From NCBI GenBank assembly GCA_003557485.1, contig PWOI01000141.1:1-10197 (forward strand): a DNA stretch of 10,197 nucleotides, read 5' to 3'. Below the pieces are notes generated by a model. That model made no database searches and had not been told where the DNA came from. It saw only the letters and a list, made by a program, of their open reading frames with translations. This stretch comes from Elusimicrobiota bacterium. GTDB taxonomy: Bacteria > CG03 > SLGR01 > PWQF01. A program made the position numbers and the translations under genes. Positions within the stretch are counted from its first letter, which is position 1. Each line of letters starts with the position of its first letter. Below are positions 1,958 to 10,197 of the stretch, in pieces.

Positions 1958-2581
1958 ATGTCAAATAATTTAACCGGTCAAAAGGTATCTTTTACTTATA
2001 AATACCTTATCCAAGAGAAAAATGGGAGTTTTTATAATGGATTAGGATCACCTATTGATATAGTAGATGTTTCTTCTCTTGAAAATTATTTAATACCATT
2101 TATTCCTGATTCTTCTTTAAATCCGGATCAATTTTTTTGGGAAAATGGTTATTTGGATGTAAGTGTTATTGGAGGTGATGGAGTTTCTAAATTTTATGTC
2201 GATGCATCATTAATTTTAAGAGATGCAAGTATTGATGTTTTATTTGATAGGCCTATTCCTGATGTTACATTAGAATATGTAGATGGATCTTTAAGTATAA
2301 GAGATTCAATGATAGATTGGTTATATTTAAATCGTTTAGATGCATCTTTAGATTATGCTACATATGAACCAAGAATATCAGACGCTTCTTATTATTATAC
2401 AGATGATTTAGTTACACAAATAGTAACAAAAAATGATTTAGGAACAAAGATTATCGATTTAACTTATGATTCAAATGAAGATGTTTCTATGATAAATATA
2501 AATAATTATGGTGAATGGATTAAAGAAGTGTCATTTGAAAGAGATGCAAGTGATAATGTAATAGCAGTTCATGTAAAATAA
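1958..2581 (+). CDS. Virion fibre/appendage-like protein with repeated Asp-Ala-Ser motifs
   Basis: A 207-residue protein, first of the rightward block. The N-terminus (TGQKVSFTYKYLIQEKNGSF, residues 6-25, then YNGLGSPIDI) resembles the start of phage fibre proteins that attach to the particle. The middle carries the motif Asp-Ala-Ser at residues 82, 89, 128 and 142 and again at 196, with relatives such as DGSL and DVSV. Two aligned copies, beginning at V81 and V108, read VD-A/G-SL--RD--ID-L. The C-terminal 45 residues look like alternating beta strands (KIIDLTYDSNEDVSM, WIKEVSFERDASDN). DAS-L/I repeats of this kind are known to me from tail-fibre-like proteins of metagenomic phages. No enzyme motif, signal peptide or membrane helix is present. 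The leader is A-rich with no Shine-Dalgarno. A structural role is likely and the exact particle position is unknown. Confidence 0.85.
   Translation: MSNNLTGQKVSFTYKYLIQEKNGSFYNGLGSPIDIVDVSSLENYLIPFIPDSSLNPDQFFWENGYLDVSVIGGDGVSKFYVDASLILRDASIDVLFDRPIPDVTLEYVDGSLSIRDSMIDWLYLNRLDASLDYATYEPRISDASYYYTDDLVTQIVTKNDLGTKIIDLTYDSNEDVSMININNYGEWIKEVSFERDASDNVIAVHVK
2198..2335 (+). repeat. Degenerate protein repeat VD(A/G)SL..RD..ID.L, two copies
   Basis: Residues 81-98 and 108-126 of the 207-residue protein align as VDASL/VDGSL, then LRDASID/IRDSMID, then L and R. The copy offset is 27 residues. The DNA copies have diverged, so the repeat is old or held by selection on the protein. Confidence 0.6.
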
Positions 2582-2593
2582 ATTATTAAATTA

Positions 2594-3001
2594 ATGATTA
2601 AAATAGCAGGAATGTGGGAACGTGGGTGGAACACCCCTATAAAAGAATTTGATCTTTGGAACTTTATGCTTAAAGAATTTAATGTGGATGAATTCTACAT
2701 GACTCCAATATCAGGTATTGATGCAGATGTTTCAGAACGAAAAAATCTTAATGATGTGATTGAAGAAAATCCAGATTTAGAAGTTATTCACATCGATGAA
2801 AACGGAGATATGGATCTTGAAAATTTTATACATCCAGAAAATGCACTTTATATTTTTGGAAGAACAAGTTCTTCAACCCTTTCTATAAAAGAAGAAGGAC
2901 ATCATTCAGTTAGAATTTCAACGATAAACAATCTTGCGGGCTTTTGGGCAAATCAAGTTGCAGCATTAGTTCTCTATGATAGATATTTAAAAACTAGATA
3001 A
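2594..3001 (+). CDS. SPOUT-superfamily (TrmH-like) RNA methyltransferase-like protein
   Basis: A 135-residue protein with the layout of a minimal SPOUT domain. N-terminal ERGWNTPIKEFDLWNF...FNVDEFYMTPI (residues 9-40) parallels the family's N/P...N--...R----FGV-----I helix-strand segment. HPENALYIFGRTSSSTLS (80-97) parallels the 'LYLFGPE--GLS' strand and loop. HHSVRIST (103-110) parallels 'V-IPM', and GFWANQVAALVLYDRYL (116-132) parallels the 'SLNVA-A--I-LYE' helix that closes the trefoil knot. Members of this superfamily methylate ribose 2'-OH groups of tRNA or rRNA with S-adenosylmethionine. The usual Gly/Glu after FG and the canonical Ser-Leu-Asn are not conserved here, so activity is uncertain and it may be a structural relative. 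It sits between virion genes, and its TAA overlaps the next ATG by one base (TAATG), implying coupled translation. Confidence 0.6.
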   Translation: MIKIAGMWERGWNTPIKEFDLWNFMLKEFNVDEFYMTPISGIDADVSERKNLNDVIEENPDLEVIHIDENGDMDLENFIHPENALYIFGRTSSSTLSIKEEGHHSVRISTINNLAGFWANQVAALVLYDRYLKTR

Positions 3002-4611
3002 TGGCAGTATCTGTTGACATAACAACTACGATGACTACTATGTGGAACGCTGACACCGCTGGTACATGGACTGGTAGTTCTCCCGACACATTTTCAGGAT
3101 TTCAAAGGGAGGGAACTGCGTGTTTAGGAATAGCAGTTTCAAATGAGACTGTAAATACTTATACAACTGTAACTTCATTTAATGCTACGCAACGTATAAT
3201 ATACATTTGGATATCTCCAAGAGGAACTATGGATACTACTGCAAATGGTGGTATTAGAATTGTTGCGGGGGATGGAACAAATACAGTAGCTTATTATGTA
3301 GGTGGTAGTGATTATGCAACTCCTTTTACAACTGGTGGAGGTTGGTATTGTTATGTTCTTGATGCAAATAATTTACCTACTAATTTTGCTACTATAAATG
3401 GTAATGAAGCATTAATAGATTGGACTGCAATTACACAAGTTGGAGTAGGATTTAAAACTCTTTCTAAGTCACTTGGTGGAGCGGCAAATTGTTTTTGGGA
3501 TATTGGAAGGCATGGAACCGGATTGATTATTGGAGGTGGTACAAGTGGTGATCCTGGAAAATGGTCAGAAATTGCGGCTGATGATGAATCAACGGCTTCA
3601 GGCAAAGCTTATGGAATTATAATGGAATTTCAGCCTGGAGTATACGGTGTTCAAGGTCAAATTACATTTGGTGATAATGGTACAGGTAGTTCTCATTTTG
3701 AAGATACTGATGCCATTATAGTATTTATGGATACTGGTGTAGCAAATAATTTCTATAAAATTGATTTAATTGGCAATTCAACAGGTACAAATGTATTTAT
3801 ACAAGGAATAAAGACAGGTTCAGGAGATGAAATAGCAGGTTCAAATGGTATAACAATAATGTCTGGAGATCCATCAGTAAATGTTGATCTTGATAATGTC
3901 AATATGGATACAGTTCATTGGTATGCTGGAAAGTTTTTTAAGATATATGGAAATATTAACCTTCCAACCGATACTACATCAGAAATAGCAGGAGTTATTT
4001 TTGATCAATGTATACAAGTAACCCCAAATAAATGCTTTTTAAGAAATTGTATATTTTCAAATACATATTCCGATAGTGCTTTGGTTTGGGATGGTTCAAT
4101 AAATATTAAAAATTCTACATTTTCGTCAAATAGTGATACAATTGATGCATCTAAACATGGTATTGAGCATCCAATAGCAGGAGAATATGATTATGATAAT
4201 TTAATATTTAGTGGTAATGATTATGATATTGAATTTTCAGCGGCATCAGGTGATCTTACTATTAATGCAGTTAATGGCGCGAATCCAGCAACATATAATA
4301 TTACAGGGGGCGGCACATCTGTGACTATTGTTTCTCCGGTTTCATTAACTCTAACAAATCTTCCAAATAATACACTTGTTTCAGTAGTAAAAACTAGTGA
4401 TAGATCAGTATTACATCAAGAGAATACAGGAGAAACGGGAACAGAGGTTGTTTATAATTATGGTGCTTCAGAAATTGGATTAGATGTAGATGTTCTTTTT
4501 ATGAATATAAATTATGATCCAAATATTGGAGATATACTTGATTTTACTTTACCTGGAGAAAATACAACATTACCGATAAGTCTTATCATTGATAGAACTT
4601 ATATAGAATGA
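3001..4611 (+). CDS. Large phage appendage protein: lectin-like N-terminus, beta-helix middle, small C-terminal sandwich
   Basis: A 536-residue protein. Residues 1-180 are Thr/Gly-rich alternating strands with conserved-looking QREGTACLGIAVS (36-48) and GGGWYCYVLD (112-121), suggesting a jelly-roll or concanavalin-like fold. Residues 205-425 show short strand-turn units with Asn/Cys-bearing turns (FDQCIQV, LRNCIFSN, INIKNSTFSSN) typical of right-handed parallel beta-helices. Residues 440-536 form a small beta domain (SLTLTNLPNNTLVSVVKTSD) ending TLPGENTTLPISLIIDRTYI. This matches a C-terminal 'LP---T-IP----IDR-Y' pattern that I recall from many phage particle proteins. It is probably an exposed tail- or head-associated protein contacting the host surface. 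No catalytic triad or lyase motif stands out. It is coupled to the upstream gene by TAATG and followed by a 66-base leader. Confidence 0.85.
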   Translation: MAVSVDITTTMTTMWNADTAGTWTGSSPDTFSGFQREGTACLGIAVSNETVNTYTTVTSFNATQRIIYIWISPRGTMDTTANGGIRIVAGDGTNTVAYYVGGSDYATPFTTGGGWYCYVLDANNLPTNFATINGNEALIDWTAITQVGVGFKTLSKSLGGAANCFWDIGRHGTGLIIGGGTSGDPGKWSEIAADDESTASGKAYGIIMEFQPGVYGVQGQITFGDNGTGSSHFEDTDAIIVFMDTGVANNFYKIDLIGNSTGTNVFIQGIKTGSGDEIAGSNGITIMSGDPSVNVDLDNVNMDTVHWYAGKFFKIYGNINLPTDTTSEIAGVIFDQCIQVTPNKCFLRNCIFSNTYSDSALVWDGSINIKNSTFSSNSDTIDASKHGIEHPIAGEYDYDNLIFSGNDYDIEFSAASGDLTINAVNGANPATYNITGGGTSVTIVSPVSLTLTNLPNNTLVSVVKTSDRSVLHQENTGETGTEVVYNYGASEIGLDVDVLFMNINYDPNIGDILDFTLPGENTTLPISLIIDRTYIE

Positions 4612-4677: not shown

Positions 4678-6234
4678 ATGGCAAAAATTATTGATCCCGA
4701 TCAGTTAAATCAAGATATAGAAGTTGTTTTAGATACTGATACAAAAAAGATAAAATTATTAGAAGCAGGAAACTTAGATAATAATTCGCCTGGTGTAACA
4801 TCTGGAGTTGCGATGCAAGCATTATATTCGTTCTTTAAAAATGAATGGATGACAGATGCATCTTTAAATAAATTTAGATTTCCACAGACTGCTATTTATG
4901 AAGCATCTTTTATTATGACAAATAATTGGGGATGGGAAGATGTTAGTACAAGAAATCTAATACGAGATGCAGGATGGCAAGAAATAGATTCATCTGAATA
5001 TGCTTGTATTATTTCTCTTGGTAGTATGGATGATGAACAGGCTGATCAAGCTTATTATCAACAAGTGACTGGGTTTGATCAAACAACAGAAAATTTTGAT
5101 AAAACAGGTCCTCTTAATGAAGCTATACAAGTTTATGGTGGTACTGATTATAGAGGTTTCTTAAAAACTTTTTTAAGAGAACAAGGCAAGACCTATGATT
5201 TATATAATCTACTGGTTGAACAGAATATCGCAGCACTTACTTATGCTGCTTATCGTTTGCCTCTCTCAAATGCTGTAGATATTAATATATTTTATACTGA
5301 TGCTTCTATTGCTGCTGTACAACCATTTACTTCAATGCAATTACAGTATTATCCAGGCACAAGATTTGAAGATGTAAGCATTGCAATAACTTATGAAATA
5401 GGTGATGTTGTAAAGAGTAGTGATGATAGATGGTTCCAATGTGTTTCTACAAATACTGGTGTAACGGATGCATCTTTAACAGATACTGATTATTGGAAAA
5501 TTTATCCCGGAGAAAAACAAATTGGAGAAAATTATTATGCATTTAATCGAGAAATTAGATGTGATGTTGGAAATCCTGGTGATAGATATGAAATGTATGC
5601 ATGGGCTCAACATCAATTAAGACAAAATAGTGATATTAATGATGATCCTGATACTTTAGTATACGGAACTGTTAATGGTAATGTGGCTAACCCTCTTTGT
5701 TTCTTTGTAGGAGGAAATCTTTGGGGAGAACCTGGAGTGTGGTTTGAGAATTTTAGTACAGGTGATATTAATGATTTAACATTACAAAGTATTGATGCTG
5801 CGCCAGCAAATACAAATGGTTTAAATGAAGAAGATGTTCCGAAATCAGTTACAACAAGAATATATCCATTCGTTTCAACGGGACAATTAGTTTTTAATAC
5901 AGACTTAGTAAATGATGCAGATGCAAAATATTGGATGTATTTTGAAAACGCAGGAGGTAATCAATTCGATACAACTAATGCAATTATAGTAAATGATTCA
6001 GATGGAAATCCTATTAATGGAAATATATCACAACAAAATATTGATTTTACATTCGATTATGATAATAATAATCAAGGAGGAAGAACTCCTGGTACTGATG
6101 CAGCAGTTGTTGTTGTAGCTATGGGATTATCTGATGCTCAATGGGTATTAGGTTCTTTTAATATTACGCGTACTGTTGGATTAAATTTTCCTGTTAATGC
6201 ACCTACAGAAAGAAACTATATATCATCAACTTAA
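4678..6234 (+). CDS. Phage virion structural protein with chitin-binding-like insert
   Basis: A 518-residue protein. The N-terminal 200 residues (IDPDQLNQDIEVVLDTDTKK, residues 5-24, then SGVAMQALYSFFKNEW, FPQTAIYEASFIMTNNWGW, TRNLIRDAGW, YACIISLGSMDD, GFLKTFLREQGKTY) resemble a conserved particle protein that I have seen in unrelated phage contigs. Residues 237-278 (YEIGDVV...RWFQCVST..., TDYWKIYPG) look like a CBM5/12 or ChtBD3-type small beta domain placed inside it. The remainder is beta-rich and Asp/Asn-rich with strands such as PLCFFVGGNLWG and KYWMYFENAGG. It ends in a hydrophobic AAVVVVAMG strand (475-483) and a TRTVGLNFPVNAPTERNYI tail. DASL/DASI occurs at residues 60, 208 and 264. 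It is probably a major component of the tail or baseplate. ATG at 4678 is chosen over ATG 4671, which is out of frame. Confidence 0.85.
   Translation: MAKIIDPDQLNQDIEVVLDTDTKKIKLLEAGNLDNNSPGVTSGVAMQALYSFFKNEWMTDASLNKFRFPQTAIYEASFIMTNNWGWEDVSTRNLIRDAGWQEIDSSEYACIISLGSMDDEQADQAYYQQVTGFDQTTENFDKTGPLNEAIQVYGGTDYRGFLKTFLREQGKTYDLYNLLVEQNIAALTYAAYRLPLSNAVDINIFYTDASIAAVQPFTSMQLQYYPGTRFEDVSIAITYEIGDVVKSSDDRWFQCVSTNTGVTDASLTDTDYWKIYPGEKQIGENYYAFNREIRCDVGNPGDRYEMYAWAQHQLRQNSDINDDPDTLVYGTVNGNVANPLCFFVGGNLWGEPGVWFENFSTGDINDLTLQSIDAAPANTNGLNEEDVPKSVTTRIYPFVSTGQLVFNTDLVNDADAKYWMYFENAGGNQFDTTNAIIVNDSDGNPINGNISQQNIDFTFDYDNNNQGGRTPGTDAAVVVVAMGLSDAQWVLGSFNITRTVGLNFPVNAPTERNYISST
5386..5511 (+). other. CBM5/12-like (ChtBD3-type) domain within the 518-residue protein
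   Basis: Residues 237-278 follow the module pattern Y--GDVV-----RWF-C-S--TG--D--L-D--YW---PG, with aromatic residues at Y239, W252, F253, Y272 and W273. In the known family these aromatics bind chitin or related glycans, or act as a spacer fold in phage proteins. The boundaries are estimated by eye. Confidence 0.45.
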
Positions 6235-9831: not shown

Positions 9832-10197
9832 TTAATGTATATTTAATGTGTTTTTTGCATGTTCAATAATTTCTTTAGGTCCTAAGTGTTTACCCTTTGA
9901 ATCAGATAATTTAATAGTATATACCCAATCTTCTCCTTCTGGTTTTGCATGAGTCATTTTTATAACCATATTAAGAGCTTTATAACCAACATCGTTTGTA
10001 AGATTTGTACCAATACCAAATGAACATTTAATTTTACCTTGACAATACTTAAATATTTGTACGGCTAAATCTGGGTTAAGACTATCTGAGAATACTATAG
10101 TTTTAGACTGAGGGTCTATTCCCATTTTTTTATAGTGCATAATTATTTTATCCGTAAATTCAAAAGGACAACCAGAATCTTGTCTAACACCATCATA
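9832..10197 (-). CDS. pncB: Nicotinate phosphoribosyltransferase, C-terminal part (gene runs off right edge)
   Basis: The frame is open from the right edge to a TAA at 9832, giving the last 121 residues. An ATG at 10140 is internal, because the 19 codons upstream of it are clearly homologous to the enzyme (GVRQDSG...PFEFTDKII). Family motifs appear in the right order: GVRQDSG, HYKKMGIDPQSKTIVFSDSL, FGIGTNLTND (phosphate/ribose-binding loop region), ALNMVIKM and KLSDSKGKH near the C-terminus. PncB condenses nicotinate with phosphoribosyl pyrophosphate, coupled to ATP hydrolysis, to make nicotinate mononucleotide, the first step of Preiss-Handler NAD salvage in the cytoplasm. Bacterial PncB is usually about 400 residues, so roughly 280 lie outside the window. 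The autophosphorylated His lies in that missing part and cannot be checked. Within QDSG-C-PFEF a Cys replaces the usual Asp of DSGDP. The phage-like neighbours indicate a virus-carried copy. Confidence 0.92.
   Translation of the reverse strand, partial: YDGVRQDSGCPFEFTDKIIMHYKKMGIDPQSKTIVFSDSLNPDLAVQIFKYCQGKIKCSFGIGTNLTNDVGYKALNMVIKMTHAKPEGEDWVYTIKLSDSKGKHLGPKEIIEHAKNTLNIH

Follow-up and report, generated by a model that had tools for sequence, protein, structure and literature searches.

A relative of TrmH methyltransferases without their catalytic motifs, encoded in tandem with a candidate phage adhesin

What would a small protein resembling an RNA 2'-O-methyltransferase do among genes for phage particles, in a reading frame that overlaps the frame of an adhesin? 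This question is raised by a gene in a stretch of 10,197 nucleotides (the window, meaning here the whole stretch of DNA analysed). The first-pass annotation had noticed a SPOUT/TrmH-like protein in it and left two options: an RNA-modifying enzyme expressed with late genes, or a SPOUT fold reused for assembly. The explanation to which the evidence below leans, by a modest balance, is that the protein is a SPOUT pseudo-methyltransferase related to phage TrmH-like RNA 2'-O-methyltransferases, devoid of their catalytic and cofactor motifs and serving as a dedicated partner of the adjoining adhesin.

The gene and its predicted fold

The 135-aa reading frame is present as had been claimed, with an ATG start and with its stop codon TAA (2999-3001) sharing a base with the ATG (3001-3003) of the next frame, 3001-4611.

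2594..3001, plus strand: SPOUT/TrmH-like putative pseudo-methyltransferase, 135 aa (AlphaFold2 model, PDB matches, 18 other homologous loci)
2597..2614, plus strand: strand 1 of the AlphaFold2 model, residues 2-7, where the motif 1 region begins
2999..3003, plus strand: TAATG, the stop codon overlapping the start of the adhesin gene (from the sequence; 17 of 18 pairs overlap)

Homologues with 24-52% identity are found at 18 other loci, and 2594-3001 is therefore regarded as a real gene. All these relatives come from uncultured viral contigs: the first were L001/L002 (43% identity), followed by L014, L015/L016, and L017, and more loci were obtained with a DNA pattern for F-[IV]-H-P-E-N-A-x-Y-x-F-G and with the family alignment, which comprises 19 members, the window protein included. 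Searches of Pfam, PHROGs, and PDB sequences with the single 135-aa protein gave chance-level matches only, Radial_spoke and aspartokinase being discarded as such; the protein has no match at the Pfam gathering score for PF00588, and weak sub-threshold PF00588 matches are seen in L015, L018, and L035. No family member was found in the isolate phages searched, where the sole match was a frameshifted intact-type TrmH in LR756511, or in one scan of genome contigs, and the real matches in a BFVD search were giant-virus rRNA methylases only.

Structure prediction, which had been proposed as a check of the call, returned a SPOUT fold with matches over residues 1-135. The AlphaFold2 model, built from an 11-sequence alignment (A3), has a pLDDT of 89.2 and a pTM of 0.87 and proceeds through strand 2-7, helix 16-28, strand 33-37, helix 52-57, strand 63-67, strand 84-88, helix 95-98, strand 104-107, and helix 119-134. 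Segments listed by the first-pass annotation do coincide with SPOUT elements, NALYIFG being strand 84-88 and ANQVAALVLYDR lying within the C-terminal helix 119-134. The best PDB matches in Foldseek are TrmL, YibK, CspR, TrmH, and related SPOUT methyltransferases (E from 1e-6, probability 1.00). In VIA-align, Z reaches 14.9 with YibK 6qkv_B (126 residues, 2.6 A) and is at least 12.8 in all 50 matches listed, every one SPOUT; the 50 PDB matches listed by Foldseek and VIA are SPOUT proteins, mostly of the TrmH type. By its predicted alpha/beta fold, membership of the protein in the SPOUT superfamily is thus supported. Since the alignment to deeply knotted YibK (6qh8, 6qkv, 7d51) is full-length, covering residues 1-135, it implies that the protein would likewise have a deep C-terminal trefoil knot.

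Kinship with TrmH enzymes and loss of their motifs

Independent sequence profiles, applied in both directions, agree with the structure prediction on the SPOUT/TrmH-like assignment. The DNA pattern mentioned above also yielded a second group of proteins, which carry all TrmH motifs (NVGA--R, FGPEDG, NLAAA) and PF00588 matches, and hhalign relates the window family to this intact phage TrmH group at 98.8%, in the C-terminal half. As a shared motif had served to gather the intact group, two profile tests less prone to circularity were added. The intact phage TrmH profile was applied to 12 virus records, including four where the pair had been found only via the adhesin, or (L039) via the family alignment, and it produced one match in each, always at the SPOUT-like gene (12/12); in the adhesin-found records, E was 8.6e-5 (L051), 3.2e-7 (L058), 0.0019 (L059), and 0.0022 (L061). 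Conversely, the family profile matched ten of 386 cellular genomes, the window itself among them, and the cellular matches, where inspected, were ordinary TrmH/RlmB-type genes. In a tree, the family falls on one side of a branch (95/94), a placement that carries a long-branch warning. Together, hhalign and the profiles indicate common ancestry with TrmH enzymes.

Capture of the gene from the window's own host was considered as well and is not supported, because the 2.07-Mb bin holding the window (G000, 87% complete) has no PF00588 match above chance, unlike the 14 control genomes, all of which have one.

2825..2860, plus strand: F-[IV]-H-P-E-N-A-x-Y-x-F-G motif, residues 78-89, which intact phage TrmH-like enzymes also have
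2615..2677, plus strand: remodelled motif 1, residues 8-28, with W8, E9, E18, and W22 conserved and N-x5-R absent (model, alignment)
2861..2878, plus strand: motif 2 site, residues 90-95, with RTSSST where intact relatives have PEDG (alignment)
2921..2998, plus strand: remodelled motif 3 and C-terminal helix (119-134), residues 110-135 (model, alignment)

The intact family, with its RLPREERMKGY segment and FVHPENAVYVFGPEDG, belongs to large phages (L019:11257-11796, L024, L026, L027, L029, L030, L032, L036, and L004:4709-5303). One of these TrmH-like genes sits inside a cluster of 13 tRNA genes, and the copy in LR756511, a 595-kb uncultured phage (L004:4709-5303), is split over two frames.

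T. thermophilus TrmH needs Asn35, Arg41, Glu124, Ser150, and Asn152 (PMC5372735). The absence of signature residues, first noticed in the window protein, proved to be a property of the whole family of 19 members. Within the helix that should bear motif 1 (N35 and R41 in the T. thermophilus enzyme), Asn-x5-Arg is not conserved: none of the 19 members has a basic residue at positions 18-20, 22, or 24-26, and position 27 is semi-conserved as K/R (10/19). The motif 2 Glu (E124) after FG is found in 0/19 members, whereas PEDG (FGPEDG) is present in 7/7 intact phage relatives. As to motif 3 (S150, N152), SLN/NLA/NVA is absent in 17 of the 18 members that are complete at this end, and its site holds an L-W-P-H-Q-A-like segment instead. 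The NLA of the window protein was rejected as a surviving motif 3, being out of register and unique to this protein.

Such a pattern makes it very improbable that the gene encodes an ordinary RNA methyltransferase and lies in the late region by chance. This explanation would account for the SPOUT fold and agrees with the intact TrmH relatives in other large phages, but every residue on which TrmH is known to depend is missing throughout the family, and tRNA genes are absent from the family loci scanned (0/4, versus 3/8 loci of intact enzymes, one of them with 13). With the motifs lost and no tRNA genes in the four scanned loci, a role in RNA methylation is poorly supported, and methylating activity has probably been lost.

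Another set of residues has become conserved in the family: W8 in 16/19 members, E9 in 14/19, E18 in 17/19, W22 in 19/19, E48 in 15/19, and Q121 in 11/19. Judged by position in the predicted fold, most of them would be near the old active site, suggesting that this surface has remained important in some other capacity. The main rival explanation starts from the same residues, which could equally serve a new reaction: the protein may still be enzymatic, its active site having been rebuilt. It could, for example, be a transferase that modifies proteins, with the adhesin as the substrate alongside which it is produced. Not all SPOUT enzymes are RNA methyltransferases, a protein methyltransferase and an RNA aminocarboxypropyl transferase being known (PMC5372735), and the strict pairing described below would offer such an enzyme one possible substrate, the adhesin. 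However, the family has lost motifs 2 and 3 of the cofactor loops, and these loops differ among its members in sequence and length; as far as SAM binding in the knot can be judged from sequence alone, the motifs that would hold the cofactor are not conserved. A modifying enzyme is accordingly considered unlikely, though less so than an ordinary methyltransferase, and the pseudo-methyltransferase reading is preferred.

Fixed pairing with the adhesin gene

3001..4611, plus strand: paired adhesin, 536 aa, with a CBM/turret-like N-domain, a right-handed beta-helix, and a C-terminal beta region (AlphaFold2, Foldseek, VIA)
1958..2581, plus strand: upstream ORF, 207 aa, without a family match, not conserved beside the pair
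4678..6234, plus strand: another conserved neighbour, of the MAKIIDPDQL family; in other phages it occurs on either side of the pair

The 536-aa product of the overlapping gene could not be related by sequence to any solved structure. In its AlphaFold2 model (pLDDT 86.9, pTM 0.80), the N-terminal beta-sandwich finds its best Foldseek match in the capsid turret of Haloferax tailed virus 1 (HFTV1; E 2.7e-4), VIA giving Z 12.9 over 140 residues with turret 8qpg_TA, and the right-handed beta-helix is matched to tailspike 6w4q_C with Z 15.8. Since the model combines a turret-like N-domain with a tailspike-like beta-helix, "adhesin" is a reasonable name, and the protein may be treated as a candidate adhesin of the head or tail.

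The association of the two genes was approached from both sides. When loci were collected through the SPOUT-like protein, the gene following it was a member of a single adhesin family at 10/10 of those with downstream DNA (window excluded). Starting from the adhesin alignment, an independent search turned up seven further loci that include upstream DNA, each with a SPOUT-like gene directly upstream (7/7). Thus, the pair is present in 17/17 other loci with readable flanks, 16 of them overlapping, and in 18/18 when the window is counted. Overlaps of 1-23 bases occur in 17/18 pairs, and the genes of the remaining pair are 7 bases apart; the exact overlap in L059 is uncertain because the adhesin start was set there at a non-standard codon. 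In L001, L014, L015, L038, and L058, conserved C-terminal Arg codons (in a TAGG context) are located about where the adhesin ribosome-binding site is expected.

Overlapping frames, together with TrmH homology, would also fit a regulator that still binds RNA as TrmH proteins do and governs how the overlapping adhesin message is translated. Gene overlaps are common in phages, however, and the best conserved residues of the SPOUT-like protein are mostly W, E, H, P, Y, and G, with no conserved basic patch standing out. Such a regulator is thought improbable, more so than a modifying enzyme.

The neighbour comparison that had been suggested revealed the same adhesin pair throughout, with varying upstream genes. 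The genes flanking the pair fall into 12 clusters upstream and 8 downstream, so wholesale conservation of the region does not explain the adjacency, and its persistence with one adhesin family while other neighbours change is a further argument against an ordinary methyltransferase placed there by chance. There is one exception: Virus Rctr197k encodes a distant relative of the adhesin (28% identity) with no SPOUT-like gene beside it, indicating that the adhesin fold does not always need the SPOUT-like protein. Distances among the SPOUT-like proteins track those of the first 230 residues of the adhesin (r 0.84, 0/2000 permutations) better than those of its remainder (r 0.71), a correlation that is suggestive only, because it was computed without an unrelated control gene and shared descent, which by itself can produce such values, inflates both.

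The earlier statement that the gene lies between two particle genes is weaker on the upstream side, where ORF 1958-2581 has no significant family match, so that the particle-gene setting in the window is supported only downstream. In relatives, the surroundings are recognizable as a head/packaging region: L016 has a terminase gene there, L057 a portal gene, and L017 genes for a minor head protein and a maturation protease as well as capsid-type genes. A search for the gp23 family in four records gave no match, with the controls silent too, and is therefore uninformative. L017 also carries a 2OG-Fe(II) oxygenase gene (PF13640, L017:1353-2096), with the minor head gene on one side and the maturation protease gene on the other.

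Large MAKIIDPDQL/MAIVAADW proteins recur on either side of the pair (window 4678-6234, L001:4229-6001, L039:4591-5982, L040:8129-9646). They look like further particle families, and those scanned have no Pfam or PHROG match. ORFs 1958-2581 and 4678-6234 contain many D-A-S and D-V-S tripeptides, e.g., VDASLILRDASIDV. At the far end of the window (9832-10197, minus strand), a partial gene of the nicotinate phosphoribosyltransferase family (PF04095, E 3.9e-27) is cut by the contig end.

Proposed role and comparison with known systems

Of the two options left by the first-pass annotation, the evidence favours reuse in the particle over an active RNA enzyme: the enzyme motifs have disappeared, pairing with the adhesin is near-absolute, and no tRNA genes were found nearby at the loci scanned. 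Gene order, conservation, and motif loss suggest that the SPOUT fold has been reused for the particle, with a role in folding, attachment, or assembly of the adhesin. The pseudo-methyltransferase would be a dimer, like other TrmH proteins, and would bind the adhesin, the conserved N-terminal domain of the latter being the likeliest region of contact; once bound, it might help the adhesin assemble, as a chaperone, or join it to the particle, as an adaptor, and the overlapping reading frames might hold the two proteins in proportion. Put more specifically, and more tentatively, a knotted SPOUT fold, a dead methyltransferase, may be a structural or assembly part of a capsid-turret or tail adhesin complex, encoded as a two-gene unit across diverse phages.

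A 2007 survey of the SPOUT superfamily stated that enzymatically inactive members had not been reported and named one candidate (PMC1829167), and a literature search for SPOUT/TrmH proteins in phage particles or particle modules found nothing relevant. As a small single domain with a fixed partner and a clean loss of motifs, the window protein allows a direct test, with purified proteins, of whether a knotted enzyme fold has been reused, and its gene can mark an adhesin module of uncultured phages that has no name as yet.

With SpoU/TrmH enzymes (PF00588) of the TrmL/YibK type, the window protein shares the full-length predicted fold (Z 13-15) and a remote sequence similarity, and, like YibK, it is a single minimal domain of similar size; it differs in having no motif 1 N-x5-R, motif 2 Glu, motif 3 Ser/Asn, or Pfam match. 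The intact phage TrmH-like enzymes compared (LR756511, L019, L024, L026, L027, L029, L030, and L032) share L-x-x-F-[IV]-H-P-E-N-A-x-Y-x-F-G and V-L-Y-D-R with the window family but keep all three motifs, score over the PF00588 cut-off where tabulated (L024, L026), and possess the additional RLPREERMKGY segment; tRNA genes lie near the intact enzymes in L019, L027, and L036.

On the adhesin side, the likeness is to the HFTV1 capsid turret (8qpg) in the N-part, with Z 12.9, and to phage tailspikes (6w4q) in the beta-helix, with Z 15.8; neither is known to have a SPOUT partner. In Pfam and PHROGs, the 135-aa protein has no significant match to a known chaperone family, although a distant relation could lie beyond the reach of these libraries. 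Lambda Tfa and T4 gp38 are phage tail-fibre chaperones, each a small partner encoded beside an adhesin. The role proposed for the window protein is alike, whereas the fold and the gene order differ, the partner in the window being encoded upstream of its adhesin.
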